Virus record (IMG/VR): IMGVR_UViG_3300045012_000066
Coordinates: 1-64,000 of that record
Reading direction: 5' to 3' (one strand)
Length of the DNA: 64,000 nucleotides
DNA from: a virus
In this document: positions 18,975 through 23,105 of the stretch, piece by piece
How the letters are laid out: the number at the start of each line of letters is the position of its first letter
How positions within the stretch are numbered: position 1 is the first letter of the stretch
The notes under the pieces: model-generated
Seen by the model: only the letters and a program-made list of their open reading frames with translations
What the model was told of the DNA's origin: nothing
Databases searched by the model: none
Made by a program: the position numbers and the translations under genes

Positions 18975-19064
18975 GGAGGATCGGCAGAGTTTGGAGCGCT
19001 GCACAGGTTTGCTAAACCTGCTGACCGCAAGGCAGAGTCGGTTCGAATCCGACATCCTCCGCCA
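18975..19064 (+). tRNA. tRNA-Ser (anticodon GCT)
   Basis: Acceptor GGAGGAT pairs with ATCCTCC, encoded CCA at 19062-19064. Anticodon stem CAGGT/ACCTG encloses TTGCTAA (anticodon GCT). Long variable arm as expected for serine; T arm GTCGG/CCGAC. Confidence 0.9.
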
Positions 19065-19071
19065 GAAGTAC

Positions 19072-19165
19072 GGAAGCGTGGACGAGTTGCTAAAGTCACC
19101 AGTCTCGAAAACTGGCGTGTCCTACGAAAGAGGCACCGGGGGTTGAATTCCCTCCGCTTCCGCCA
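19072..19165 (+). tRNA. tRNA-Ser (anticodon CGA)
   Basis: Acceptor GGAAGCG/CGCTTCC, encoded CCA. Anticodon stem CCAGT/ACTGG with loop CTCGAAA (CGA) and a long variable arm. Confidence 0.9.
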
Positions 19166-19172
19166 TAGTTTT

Positions 19173-19247
19173 GAGGCGGTCTTCTAACGGTCAGGAAATC
19201 GGGTTTTCATCCCGAGAATGGGAGTTCGACTCTCCTCCGCCTTGCCA
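19173..19247 (+). tRNA. tRNA-Glu (anticodon TTC)
   Basis: Acceptor GAGGCGG/CCGCCTT with a terminal G-U pair, encoded CCA. Anticodon stem TCGGG/CCCGA with loop TTTTCAT (TTC). Confidence 0.9.
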
Positions 19248-19252
19248 GATGT

Positions 19253-19328
19253 GGGACGATAACTCAAGTGGCAGAGTACCCGCCTTTTAAGCGGGAAGTT
19301 GGGGTTTCGATCACCCCTCGTCCCACCA
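19253..19328 (+). tRNA. tRNA-Lys (anticodon TTT)
   Basis: Acceptor GGGACGA/TCGTCCC, encoded CCA. Anticodon stem CCCGC/GCGGG with loop CTTTTAA (TTT). Confidence 0.9.
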
Positions 19329-19370: not shown

Positions 19371-19535
19371 TTGACACGATAGTGAGTATCAAGTTAGCTT
19401 AACTTTGCAATGACGATCTTAGCCACTCACGGTTACTGGATGCGAGCGGGAAAACCGCAGCAGAATACATCCGTGTAAGTGGCTTGGGTCGTACCTCAAC
19501 GTTTCCACCCCAAGCCTAAGAACTTGGGGTTTTTG
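19371..19535 (+). ncRNA. Candidate terminated small RNA
   Basis: TTGACA (19371-19376) with a weak -10 17 bases on is followed by nested pairings GCCACT/AGTGGC, GGATG/CATCC and GCGG/CCGC, then a strong intrinsic terminator (19508-19538). There is no convincing reading frame. It lies between the tRNAs and the Y-RNA-like series, but lacks their conserved strings. Confidence 0.5.
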
Positions 19536-19890: not shown

Positions 19891-19940
19891 AGAAAACAAT
19901 GCCGTAGACGCTGGTTCCGCAACGCATAAATTTAAATTTG

Positions 19941-20030
19941 CTCCCGGTAGTGAAAGCTTGTCAGGTACTTCGTGCCACTTCACTACGAATAGCCCGCAAG
20001 GGCTACCTGAAAGCGAGTGTTCTCCGGGGG
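19941..20030 (+). ncRNA. Y-RNA-like element 1
   Basis: Terminal stem CTCCCGG (19941-19947) pairs with CCGGGGG (20024-20030). Conserved strings shared by the series are TAGTGAA, TACTTC and GTTCT in order. A second stem GCTT-CAGGTA/TACCTG-AAGC leads to TAGCCC-GCAA-GGGCTA, a GCAA-capped stem like the capped acceptor stem of the fuller copies. Terminal stem, conserved internal strings and a tRNA-mimicking outer module match bacterial Y RNAs. Confidence 0.55.
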
Positions 20031-20041
20031 CTAAAAGTTGG

Positions 20042-20175
20042 GGCGGGATAGCTCAGTGGTAGAGCGCCGGGGGTGAAACCTCGGAGGTCGTGGGTTCGAA
20101 TCCCATTCTTAGACCGTTGTCGAGCGTTACTGGCTTCGGCCATGTCGATGATGAGGGTTTCATCTCCCGCCTCCA
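20042..20175 (+). tRNA. Aberrant tRNA with a split T stem (anticodon probably GAA)
   Basis: Acceptor GGCGGGA (20042-20048), a normal D arm and T-arm 5' strand GTGGG plus loop TTCGAAT are in order, but after CCCA (ending 20105) 58 bases intervene. Then C plus TCCCGCC T CCA (20164-20175) completes the T stem (GTGGG/CCCAC) and acceptor perfectly. The anticodon arm (CCGGG/CTCGG) has an 8-base loop containing GAA. Either a 58-nt insertion must be removed or the gene is a mimic. Confidence 0.45.
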
Positions 20176-20768: not shown

Positions 20769-20838
20769 CTCCAGATGGTGAAGCGAGTCGGTTACTTCAT
20801 ATTGAAAAAAGCTACCGTTCGCGTTTGTTCCTCTGGAG
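20769..20838 (+). ncRNA. Y-RNA-like element 2 (minimal, no tRNA module)
   Basis: Terminal stem CTCCAG (20769-20774)/CTGGAG (20833-20838). Conserved TGGTGAAG, GTTACTTC and TTGTTCC appear in order and a second helix closes a short A-rich loop where other copies carry tRNA-like modules. This looks like the bare Ro60-binding scaffold. Confidence 0.5.
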
Positions 20839-20847
20839 GTAAGAATT

Positions 20848-20940
20848 AGGCCGTAGTGAAGTTGGGACTTACTTCGTTCAAATCGAAGACTCCATAACAC
20901 GGAGACTGGTCGTTAGTTCCGACAGAGTTGTTCTCGGCCT
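20848..20940 (+). ncRNA. Y-RNA-like element 3 (T-arm plus capped acceptor-like hairpin)
   Basis: Terminal stem AGGCCG/CGGCCT. TAGTGAAG, TTACTTC and TTGTTCT are present. Inner helix TTGGGAC/GTTCCGA. The insert has a T-arm-like hairpin CTTCG-TTCAAAT-CGAAG next to a capped stem CTCC/GGAG, resembling the top half of a tRNA without D or anticodon arms. Confidence 0.5.
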
Positions 20941-20948
20941 TTAAAAGT

Positions 20949-21079
20949 TCGGGCTGGTGTAGGAAACAGTTACTTCCATTTTAAGGATGAGGTCGGGGGT
21001 TCGAATCCCTCCACCATAGCAATATGGTGTAGCTCAGTTGGTAGAGCGCATACGTCACTGTTCCGTTTGTTCCGCCCGA
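20949..21079 (+). ncRNA. Y-RNA-like element 4 carrying a circularly permuted tRNA-Lys (TTT) body
   Basis: Terminal stem TCGGGC (20949-20954)/GCCCGA (21074-21079), with TGGTGTAG, GTTACTT and TTGTTCC. Inside, the 3' half of a tRNA (20976-21018) precedes its 5' half (21023-21051), joined by GCAA that caps a perfect acceptor stem CACCATA/TATGGTG. Re-joining 21051 to 20976 restores a full cloverleaf: D arm GCTC/GAGC, anticodon stem CATCC/GGATG, loop ATTTTAA (anticodon TTT), variable AGGTC, T arm GGGGG/CCCTC. It could be a tRNA mimic of a Y RNA or a permuted tRNA precursor. Confidence 0.7.
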
Positions 21080-21374: not shown

Positions 21375-21379
21375 ACATT

Positions 21380-21495
21380 GAGCCGTAGTGAGCGTAACGG
21401 TTACTTCGGGTAAATTGCCTTCGGGCAATGTGGTTCGATCCCACAAACCAGCCGCATAAGCTGGGTAACACAACCGTTGCTAAGGTTCTCGGCTC
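21380..21495 (+). ncRNA. Y-RNA-like element 5 (T arm and capped stem)
   Basis: Terminal stem GAGCCG (21380-21385)/CGGCTC (21490-21495). TAGTGAG, GTTACTTC and GTTCT are conserved. Three hairpins follow: ATTGCC-TTCG-GGCAAT, a T-arm TGTGG-TTCGATC-CCACA (21429-21445) and CCAGC/GCTGG capped by CGCATAA. Like element 3 it mimics a tRNA top half, with an added variable-arm-like hairpin. Confidence 0.55.
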
Positions 21496-21505
21496 TCTAA
21501 AGAAA

Positions 21506-21641
21506 ATCGGGCTGGTGTAGGGAACAGTTACTTCTTCAAGAGACAGGGGTCGCGGGTTCGATTCCCGTCATCGTGGCAACACGGTGTAGCTCAACGGTAG
21601 AGCACTGTAAAAATGTCACTGCCCCGCTTGTTCCGCCCGAT
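21506..21641 (+). ncRNA. Y-RNA-like element 6 carrying a circularly permuted tRNA body (anticodon CAA)
   Basis: Terminal stem ATCGGGC (21506-21512)/GCCCGAT (21635-21641). The tRNA 3' half (21534-21575) precedes the 5' half (21580-21608), joined by GCAA capping acceptor CATCGTG/CACGGTG. Re-joining 21608 to 21534 gives anticodon stem CTGTC/GACAG, loop TTCAAGA (CAA), variable GGGTC and T arm GCGGG/CCCGT. CAA would decode UUG, but the variable loop is short, unlike a leucine tRNA. The same conserved strings flank the body as in element 4. Confidence 0.7.
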
Positions 21642-21650
21642 ATAAGAGAG

Positions 21651-21682
21651 AGCCACTCTTTGACTGGAGGAGTGGCTTTCTG
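21651..21682 (+). terminator. Intrinsic terminator after Y-RNA-like element 6
   Basis: AGCCACTC (21651-21658) pairs with GAGTGGCT (21670-21677), followed by a short T-rich run. Confidence 0.6.
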
Positions 21683-21713
21683 TTGTGTAAACCAGTTTTC
21701 GGGAGGTAATGAA

Positions 21714-23105
21714 ATGAGGACCAATGTAGCAAGTCGCAAGGCGCTTTTGTTTACCCACGAGGGTGCGGTGGCAGTTTTTATCGACCCGATTCACCAGCTT
21801 CGCCGGTCGGTGATGGCGAACATGCTGTTCGAGGACCAATTCTACGAAGACGGTCAGAGTATCGCCACGCGTATCCAAGAGGAAGTGAAAGACGTGCTGA
21901 AGGGGAAGGACGGCGCGACCAAGCTGGTGGAGATCGCCTACGAGGCCCGTACCCAGATGAAGCTGCGCCACGTGCCCTTGCTGCTTCTGGTGGCGCTGAT
22001 CCGGGAGAAGACCAAGGCCACGCGTGCCGTAGTCGCTGACGCCATCGCTCGTGTCGTGCAGCGGCCCGATGAGATGGGCGAGTTGCTGGCGCTCTACTGG
22101 CAGGAGGAGGGCAAGCCCAAAAAGCAGCCTCTGACTGCGCAGATGAAGCGTGGACTGATCGCGGCCTTCCAGAAGTTCGACGCCTACACGCTGGCCAAGT
22201 GGAACAGCGACGGCGCGTCGATCAAGCTGCGTGACGTGCTCTTCCTGATCCATGGCAAGCCCAAGGATGAGGCACAGGCCGAAGTGTGGAAGAAGCTGGC
22301 CGACAAGCAACTGGAGTCGCCGGATACGTGGGAGGTAGCGCTTTCGGCGGGTGCTGACAAAAAGGAGACCTTCACTCGGTTGCTCAAGGAAGAGAAGCTG
22401 GGTGCTCTGGCCCTGTTGCGTAATTTGCGCAACATGCAACAGGCGGGTGTGGAAGTGGAGACCATCCGTCAGGGCCTGAGCAAGATGAAGGTGGAGCGGG
22501 TACTGCCGTTTCGTTTCATCACGGCGGCACGGTACGCGCCGACGCTGGAGCCGGAACTGGAAGCCAGCATGCTGAAGTGTCTGGGTGACCATGACAAGCT
22601 GCCGGGTAAGACGGTGCTGATCGTGGACAACTCGGGTTCGATGGAGGCCAAGGTTTCCGGCAAGTCGGAGATCATGCGGAATGACGCGGCCTGCGCTCTG
22701 GCCATGTTGCTGCGGGAGATTTGCGATGAGGTGCAGGTGGTTGTTTTCTCTGACGAGGCTGTTCTGGTTCCTCCGCGCCGTGGCTTTGCGCTGCGCGATG
22801 TGATCCTGCGGGCAACTCCGCATGGTGGCACGCGCACGGAGACCGCTCTACAGGCGGCAGCTAAGCAGGGTTACGACCGTTGCATCGTAATCACTGACGA
22901 GCAGTCGCACCAGACGATCAGCGGCCCGGTCAAGAATACGAAGGGCTACTTCATCAACGTGGCCAGCTACCAGAACGGTATTGGCTACAAGGATTGGGTG
23001 CATATCGACGGCTGGAGCGAAGCAGTGGTCGAGTACATCTTCCAGTACGAGCGCTTCACCGACGAAGCCTTGACCTCGCCGGGTGAACCGGAGACAATTA
23101 ACTAG
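21714..23105 (+). CDS. rsr: Ro60/Rsr ortholog (TROVE domain plus vWA domain), 463 aa
   Basis: The first about 310 residues are a helical-repeat region matching the TROVE module of Ro60 proteins, which binds Y RNAs and misfolded RNAs in a ring. The C-terminal part is a vWA domain with the MIDAS metal site DNSGSM (about residues 348-353) and a later TDEQSH. Length is close to bacterial Rsr. The start at 21714 follows GGGAGG; longer in-frame starts lie inside the RNA elements. It directly follows six Y-RNA-like elements, the classic Rsr/Y-RNA arrangement. In bacteria Rsr with Y RNA can tether exonucleases such as PNPase. Confidence 0.9.
   Translation: MRTNVASRKALLFTHEGAVAVFIDPIHQLRRSVMANMLFEDQFYEDGQSIATRIQEEVKDVLKGKDGATKLVEIAYEARTQMKLRHVPLLLLVALIREKTKATRAVVADAIARVVQRPDEMGELLALYWQEEGKPKKQPLTAQMKRGLIAAFQKFDAYTLAKWNSDGASIKLRDVLFLIHGKPKDEAQAEVWKKLADKQLESPDTWEVALSAGADKKETFTRLLKEEKLGALALLRNLRNMQQAGVEVETIRQGLSKMKVERVLPFRFITAARYAPTLEPELEASMLKCLGDHDKLPGKTVLIVDNSGSMEAKVSGKSEIMRNDAACALAMLLREICDEVQVVVFSDEAVLVPPRRGFALRDVILRATPHGGTRTETALQAAAKQGYDRCIVITDEQSHQTISGPVKNTKGYFINVASYQNGIGYKDWVHIDGWSEAVVEYIFQYERFTDEALTSPGEPETIN

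Follow-up and report, generated by a model that had tools for sequence, protein, structure and literature searches.

A permuted tRNA module with a split anticodon arm in a phage Y RNA encoded near a Ro60 gene

Described relatives and the phage locus

Bacterial Y RNAs of the YrlA type (Rfam RF02553; Salmonella YrlA, PDB 6CU1) are linked to Ro60 and combine a terminal stem with permuted D, T and capped acceptor arms, and in all these respects the phage RNA studied here is like them. The tRNA-like domain of YrlA is described as having D, T and acceptor arms only, with DusA and TruB modifying its D and T loops (PMC8394870), and in the RF02553 consensus the D stem is directly followed by a 4-bp connecting helix, an anticodon hairpin being absent; neither of these two descriptions, on which our comparison is based, has an anticodon arm. 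The class that we describe differs from RF02553 in having an unpaired position 26, a split anticodon stem of 5 bp and a loop with U33. It was suggested that Salmonella YrlA is a competitive inhibitor, i.e. a decoy, of an anticodon nuclease, YrlA itself not being cut (PMC7790460). As to phages, three very abundant transcripts, putative Y RNAs, were reported in the Listeria P100-like phage CKA15 from the 2 kb that precede an Rsr-like gene, and the Rsr-like protein is among the proteins of its purified particles (PMC12282133).

The Y RNA of Deinococcus radiodurans (Rsr-PNPase, RYPER) also stands beside a Ro60 ortholog and is thought to tether an effector; the RNA described here differs in that it is phage-encoded and appears to mimic a whole tRNA, and its effector is only putative. 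Permuted tRNA genes of algae and archaea likewise have the 3′ half before the 5′ half, and are spliced to mature CCA-ended tRNAs, whereas the phage RNA has a sealed acceptor, and its break is located in the anticodon stem, within the putative Ro60-binding stem. Phage tRNAs that resist anticodon nucleases, such as the tRNA-Lys of T5 against PARIS, provide another parallel, that of a phage RNA with an anticodon arm and a possible link to tRNA-targeting defences. However, these are functional tRNAs, whereas our RNA, its acceptor being sealed, would not be chargeable. Phages do counter tRNA-Lys nucleases with tRNAs (PMC11455837).

The window, i.e. the whole stretch of 64,000 nucleotides that was analysed, is part of a virus record of 122,463 bases (IMG/VR IMGVR_UViG_3300045012_000066, positions 1 to 64,000), that of a phage of ~122 kb. 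In it, a tRNA cluster (18975-19328) precedes several Y-RNA-like elements, after which comes a Ro60/TROVE gene (21714-23105, + strand; the ATG at 21714 is our own reading of the start), the product of which matches Pfam TROVE (E 3e-13), vWA_Ro60 (E 5e-9) and the RNA-binding PHROG 850 (E 2e-48). A normal tRNA-Lys(UUU) gene is already carried by the phage (19253-19328, ARAGORN). One Y RNA design recurs in the window: a closing stem, a TACTT motif in the 5′ strand and a GTTC-type element in the 3′ strand. Sequence and fold place Y RNAs without a tRNA module at 19940-20030, 20771-20838 and 20849-20940, and one with a partial module at 21379-21496, the latter lacking a D arm but having a T arm and a capped acceptor hairpin, with a TTCG hairpin where the anticodon arm would be. 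Permuted tRNA modules are found in two Y RNAs, the one under study (20949-21079) and a sister (21508-21640) which is 77% identical over the matched region and scores 43.7 bits (E 8e-8) against Rfam YrlA; like the preceding elements, both are on the + strand. The array is followed by a candidate terminator (21649-21685, + strand), a hairpin AGCCACTC...GAGTGGCT and then a T-rich tract, which is a reading of the sequence only and is absent from the output of a terminator scan.

Two other elements of the region should be mentioned. A long hairpin at 19418-19487 (AGCCACT-CACGG-TTACT-GGATG ... CATCC-GTGTA-AGTGGCT) resembles a further Y RNA without a tRNA module. At 20042-20175 there is a tRNA-like gene in linear order, which scores 40.8 bits against Rfam tRNA at 20047-20108 and receives no ARAGORN call. 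Its acceptor complement TCCCGCC, with TCCA, is located at 20165-20175, 56 bases downstream, the insert (20109-20164) contains GAGCGTTACTGG, similar to the Y RNA motif, and the anticodon loop has 8 nt and lacks U33. The gene, identical in the closest relative, phage L001, may be a chimera of tRNA and Y RNA in which the permutation took place at a different site.

Against RF02553 the RNA under study gives, over 20987-21052, a sub-threshold match of 37.4 bits (E 5e-6), the cut-off being 69 bits. At this cut-off no match was found in 20 sampled loci of the class; sub-threshold matches of 33-54 bits were obtained in most of the 16 loci that were searched again. Since the score is below the cut-off and RF02553 has a connecting helix in place of the arm, we treat the RNA as a variant apart from that family: it probably works like a YrlA-type Y RNA and forms a separate variant of bacterial Y RNA.

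Anatomy of the permuted module

An earlier note on this DNA had proposed a circularly permuted tRNA-Lys body inside a Y-RNA-like RNA. The Y-RNA-like character is borne out by the closing stem, by the shared motifs and by the Ro60/TROVE gene, which lies nearby downstream, also on the + strand. The fold of 20949-21079 (MFE -44.7 kcal/mol) starts with a terminal stem, TCGGGC (20949-20954) pairing with GCCCGA (21074-21079), and the two ends of the RNA form a long, putatively Ro60-binding stem in which the 5′ strand (20949-20975, GGCTGGTGTAGGAAACAGTTACTT) is paired with the 3′ strand (21052-21079, from the fold). The former carries GTTACTTC, a motif common to the Y RNAs compared here, of phage as well as of bacterial origin, and the latter includes GTTTGTTCC, an element similar to one in the neighbouring Y RNAs; the identity of GTTACTTC...GTTTGTTCC as the Ro60-binding motif relies on this recurrence and on prior knowledge.

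Between the two strands lies the tRNA body, 3′ half first, all the elements that had been named being found exactly at the positions given in the note. The 5′-strand part of the anticodon arm (20976-20989), whose composite stem covaries in the family, consists of C30 C31 (20976-20977), the loop 32-38 ATTTTAA (20978-20984), i.e. A32 T33 T34 T35 T36 A37 A38 with U33 and a UUU anticodon, and 39-43 GGATG (20985-20989). It is followed by the variable loop AGGTC (44-48; 20990-20994), for which covariation demands a length of exactly 5, by the T arm GGGGG-TTCGAAT-CCCTC (20995-21011; 5/5 stem pairs, one of them G-U) and by the acceptor hairpin CACCATA-GCAA-TATGGTG (21012-21029; 7/7 bp). In this hairpin, acceptor positions 66-72 (21012-21018) and 1-7 (21023-21029) are sealed by a GNRA tetraloop, GCAA (21019-21022), the cap that the note had described. 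The last segment (21030-21051) provides U8 A9, the D arm (21032-21047, stem 4/4), G26 (21048) and C27 A28 T29 (21049-21051), the bases that serve as 5′ strand in the lower part of the anticodon stem.

When 21051 is joined to 20976, C27 A28 T29 and C30 C31 together face G39 G40 A41 T42 G43 across a 7-base loop, and ARAGORN reports a full cloverleaf with anticodon ttt for the sequence joined at 29|30. The complete anticodon arm, U33, the TTT anticodon and the exact break can be retained from the earlier note; the cloverleaf was given there as 73 nt, whereas we count 72 nt for the join, and 'tRNA-Lys' is only the anticodon label. In native order, 20949-21079 yields no ARAGORN tRNA call, and its Rfam tRNA score, 27.4 bits, is below 29. 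The module has the GCAA cap and encodes no CCA, which can also be added post-transcriptionally. Within 20976-21051 the closest relative, L001 (97% identical), shows a single difference, A to C at loop position 32, giving the loop CTTTTAA. The sister RNA also closes perfectly at 29|30, its joined loop being TTCAAGA with anticodon CAA and G37.

For a lone RNA, the extra pairs represent a coincidence of about 1 in 60 (CC/GG separated by 7 nt plus U33, given the first three stem pairs). Evidence for an anticodon arm from a single RNA is thus weak, and relatives were for this reason examined for retention of the pairs. The lowest-energy nearest-neighbour fold of 20949-21079 contains three local pairs but lacks the lower three. 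In this calculation the full composite arm has to be forced, at an expense of 3.6 kcal/mol that tertiary stacking or a protein would have to pay.

Read linearly, 20955-21016 gives a tRNA look-alike without D arm (27.4 bits), in which the 5′ strand GGTGTAG can pair with acceptor CACCA, and this look-alike probably explains the tRNA calls of gene finders at such loci. In the phages L014 (2628-2695), L013 (3266-3340) and L010 (3334-3401), GenBank 'tRNA' entries coincide with permuted Y RNA modules or adjoin them, in most cases upstream of Ro60, and another such entry is that of L017, phage Myrna (2970-3041); these four are likely mis-annotated. Rfam tmRNA_permuted matches occur in the Brevundimonas jumbo phages L012 (7249-7504) and L013 (6842-7187); this is another permuted tRNA-like RNA near Ro60.

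The anticodon arm in phage and bacterial modules

Viral and genome collections were scanned with a pattern that had only two fixed parts, the Y-RNA motif TTACTTC and the first bases of the T arm, with 3-33 free bases in between, so that the anticodon arm was not selected for. Once modules lacking a D arm or having fewer than 6 of the 7 acceptor pairs had been removed, there remained at least 125 non-redundant modules (69 viral, 56 bacterial), which are a sample and are called below the listed modules. A complete arm, with a 5-bp stem and a 7-nt loop, is present in 86 of the 125 listed modules, as compared to 3.4 (sd 1.8) after strand shuffling. With 36 of the 56 bacterial and 50 of the 69 viral modules listed, it is about equally frequent in both groups, and hence not a phage invention; about one third of the listed modules do without a complete arm, which is therefore not essential to being a Y RNA. 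Judging from these sequences, the Y RNA modules of both phages and bacteria have had the complete anticodon arm for a long time, and it is widespread among them. Such breadth contradicts the recent derivation from a real tRNA(-Lys) that the earlier note had suggested. We also considered whether the module was copied recently from the tRNA-Lys that the phage itself carries (19253-19328), and rejected this, as the body sequences differ by eye.

Among the listed modules, 37 of the 87 short acceptor loops are GNRA or UNCG caps, against ~10 in shuffled sequences, and NCCA directly follows the acceptor strand in 14 of 125, when about 2 would be expected by chance according to our own estimate; the retained NCCA suggests true tRNA ancestry. 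Calls by ARAGORN on modules joined in silico were discarded as proof: 120 of the 125 listed modules are called, but 103-109 are still called after shuffling of the arm, which makes the joined-module test uninformative. In the parts of Listeria phage P100 that were covered (1-75000 and 105000-131384), no permuted module was found by the criteria used here.

The pairing partners differ along the stem. Among the listed modules, 27-43 is paired in 99% (z 13.8) and 28-42 in 95% (z 14.3), the partner strand being in both cases the bases after the D arm, on the 3′ strand of the RNA; 30-40 (74%, z 7.3) and 31-39 (78%, z 9.3) are paired locally, on the 5′ strand, and position 41 finds a partner on either side. 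No pairing signal is seen in the listed modules for loop sizes other than 7 or variable loops other than 5. An anticodon hairpin wholly local to the 5′ strand (break at 26|27) was tried and rejected, 27-43 and 28-42 giving z values of only 0.6 and -0.2 locally and strong ones with the post-D-arm strand. The signal persists in sets of 97, 52 and 20 dissimilar representatives, with the two local pairs dropping to z ~2-3 in the smaller sets. In an independent count over 37 aligned modules, complete or not, the covariation score of the five pairs is 0.913, against 0.203 (sd 0.037) for shuffles and at most 0.180 for slid registers, and compensatory changes are observed in all five; RNAalifold, run on this alignment, did not pick the composite stem. 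The anticodon stem is split at 29|30, and it is there that the putative Ro60-binding stem branches off.

In the loop, U33 is present in 80 of the 86 complete arms as against 5 of the 28 modules with three pairs or fewer (p 5e-14, listed modules). When close relatives are compared, position 33 differs in 4% of the pairs, position 38 in 10% and position 37 in 17%, the figures being 46% for 34, 51% for 35 and 44% for the acceptor stem (all raw pair rates, ignoring tree structure); L174, for instance, has the same arm and stem as the RNA of the window with GCU instead of UUU. A34 is nearly absent (1 of the 86 complete arms listed). Positions 36-37 are UA or GG in 67 of these 86 arms and in 255 of 512 ordinary tRNAs from the same loci (p 1e-6, relatedness uncorrected). 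These two dinucleotides are the contexts of t6A37 (UA) and m1G37 (GG). Among phage loci with two modules (L014, L015, L100, L148, L162, L166, L181, L216, L221), there is often one U36-A37 loop and one G36-G37 loop, as if two classes were kept; L014, L015, L100, L148, L162 and L181 have one module of each type. On the comparisons made here, the fold of the anticodon loop is conserved and the particular anticodon is not. With the fold kept and the anticodon free to change, the thing that is read would be a tRNA anticodon loop and not one codon.

The modules are also linked to Ro60. A Ro60 match is present in the available DNA of 44 of the 63 viral and 34 of the 55 bacterial module loci listed, many of these loci being short. 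Where Ro60 is on the same piece of DNA, all of the 83 listed modules are on the same strand as Ro60 and 63 are upstream of it. Control loci, chosen for a tRNA pair, have Ro60 in 6 cases out of 120, several of which contain such modules.

Possible roles of a proposed whole-tRNA mimic on Ro60

The best explanation, to which we give a probability of about 0.6, is that of a bacterial-type Y RNA, a partner of Ro60, whose effector end is a complete and sealed tRNA mimic. Its architecture, the covariation and the Ro60 linkage are what the sequences show. The tRNA sequence would have been circularly permuted. A GCAA tetraloop, closing the acceptor stem, would link the old 5′ and 3′ ends, and the new ends, which fall between nucleotides 29 and 30 in the 5′ strand of the anticodon stem, would continue into the Ro60-binding stem. 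Because the new ends are at this place, the anticodon arm is intact but split, its lower pairs being made with the strand after the D arm, and its upper pairs and U-turn loop being local. The RNA at 20949-21079 would then be the partner of the phage Ro60, to which it putatively binds, and Ro60 would tether, via the RNA, proteins that recognize a whole tRNA, anticodon arm included. Anticodon-loop modification enzymes, tRNA nucleases and repair enzymes may be such partners; a genuine anticodon loop makes tRNA-modifying and anticodon-nuclease partners more plausible. An RNA that is not charged would not need to preserve any given codon, in agreement with the drift seen at 34-35. We infer that its function could be the docking of tRNA-handling enzymes, or that of a nuclease decoy.

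Could the arm simply be a chance reading of an ordinary YrlA with its connecting stem? The extra pairs in a single RNA are only a ~1-in-60 event and Rfam YrlA does have a plain connecting helix at the position of the arm, but 86 of the 125 listed modules have the arm when 3.4 are expected, and covariation is strong on diverse representatives, with an exact loop size and spacing, so that coincidence is very improbable. Just as improbable is a real permuted tRNA gene, cut out, joined at 29|30, completed with CCA and decoding AAA/AAG, as in the spliced alternative of the earlier note. Flawless as the joined cloverleaf is, the acceptor is sealed without an encoded CCA, no protein of the RtcB and RNA_ligase families, the two ligase families searched, was found in the virus record, the anticodon of the sister RNA would be CAA, followed by G37, and a normal tRNA-Lys(UUU) is available to the phage from 19253-19328. 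The anticodon, the non-conservation of which the note itself had counted against this reading, is not conserved among relatives: between close ones, 34-35 are about as variable as the acceptor stem.

Another possibility, improbable in our opinion, is that the arm is a vestige, left from a tRNA ancestor of Y RNA modules and without present role. The modules are plainly tRNA-like, some keep NCCA after the acceptor strand (14 of the 125 listed, ~2 expected by chance), about one third of those listed have lost the arm, and the anticodon bases drift. However, a mere remnant does not agree with compensatory changes in five of five stem pairs, with conservation of U33 and A38 in close pairs while 34-35 change, or, among the listed modules, with the rarity of A34 (1/86) and the excess of UA or GG at 36-37 (67/86 against 255/512 in ordinary tRNAs, p 1e-6). 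A role as decoy, in which the Y RNA would offer host anticodon nucleases a tRNA-shaped target and so spare the real tRNAs, with an anticodon varying as the nucleases do, has more in its favour and is still rather unlikely. Such nucleases read a complete anticodon loop, 34-35 change fast on a conserved scaffold, several phages have two modules of different loop classes, a decoy role has been proposed for Salmonella YrlA (PMC7790460), and phages fight tRNA-Lys nucleases with tRNAs (PMC11455837). On the other hand, listed modules of bacterial (36/56) and viral (50/69) origin have the complete arm at similar frequencies, so that it is not phage-specific, Salmonella YrlA was not cut (PMC7790460), and no nuclease is linked to the Y RNA here.

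Returning to the sealed tRNA mimic as the preferred explanation, we may extend it, though only tentatively, to the whole family. Split-arm Y RNAs could be a separate class of wide distribution, through which Ro60 would present a sealed mimic of a whole tRNA with a diversifying anticodon and with tRNA-like features at the U-turn, 37 and 34, serving as bait or decoy for enzymes that read the anticodon loop and, in phages, countering tRNA-targeting defences. If whole-tRNA mimicry holds for most modules, other partners have to be considered: the enzymes of t6A37, m1G37 and queuosine, anticodon nucleases and repair enzymes become candidates, and the proposed role as anticodon-nuclease decoy becomes directly testable. 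It may also explain why some such RNAs bear tRNA-gene labels in phage and genome annotation.
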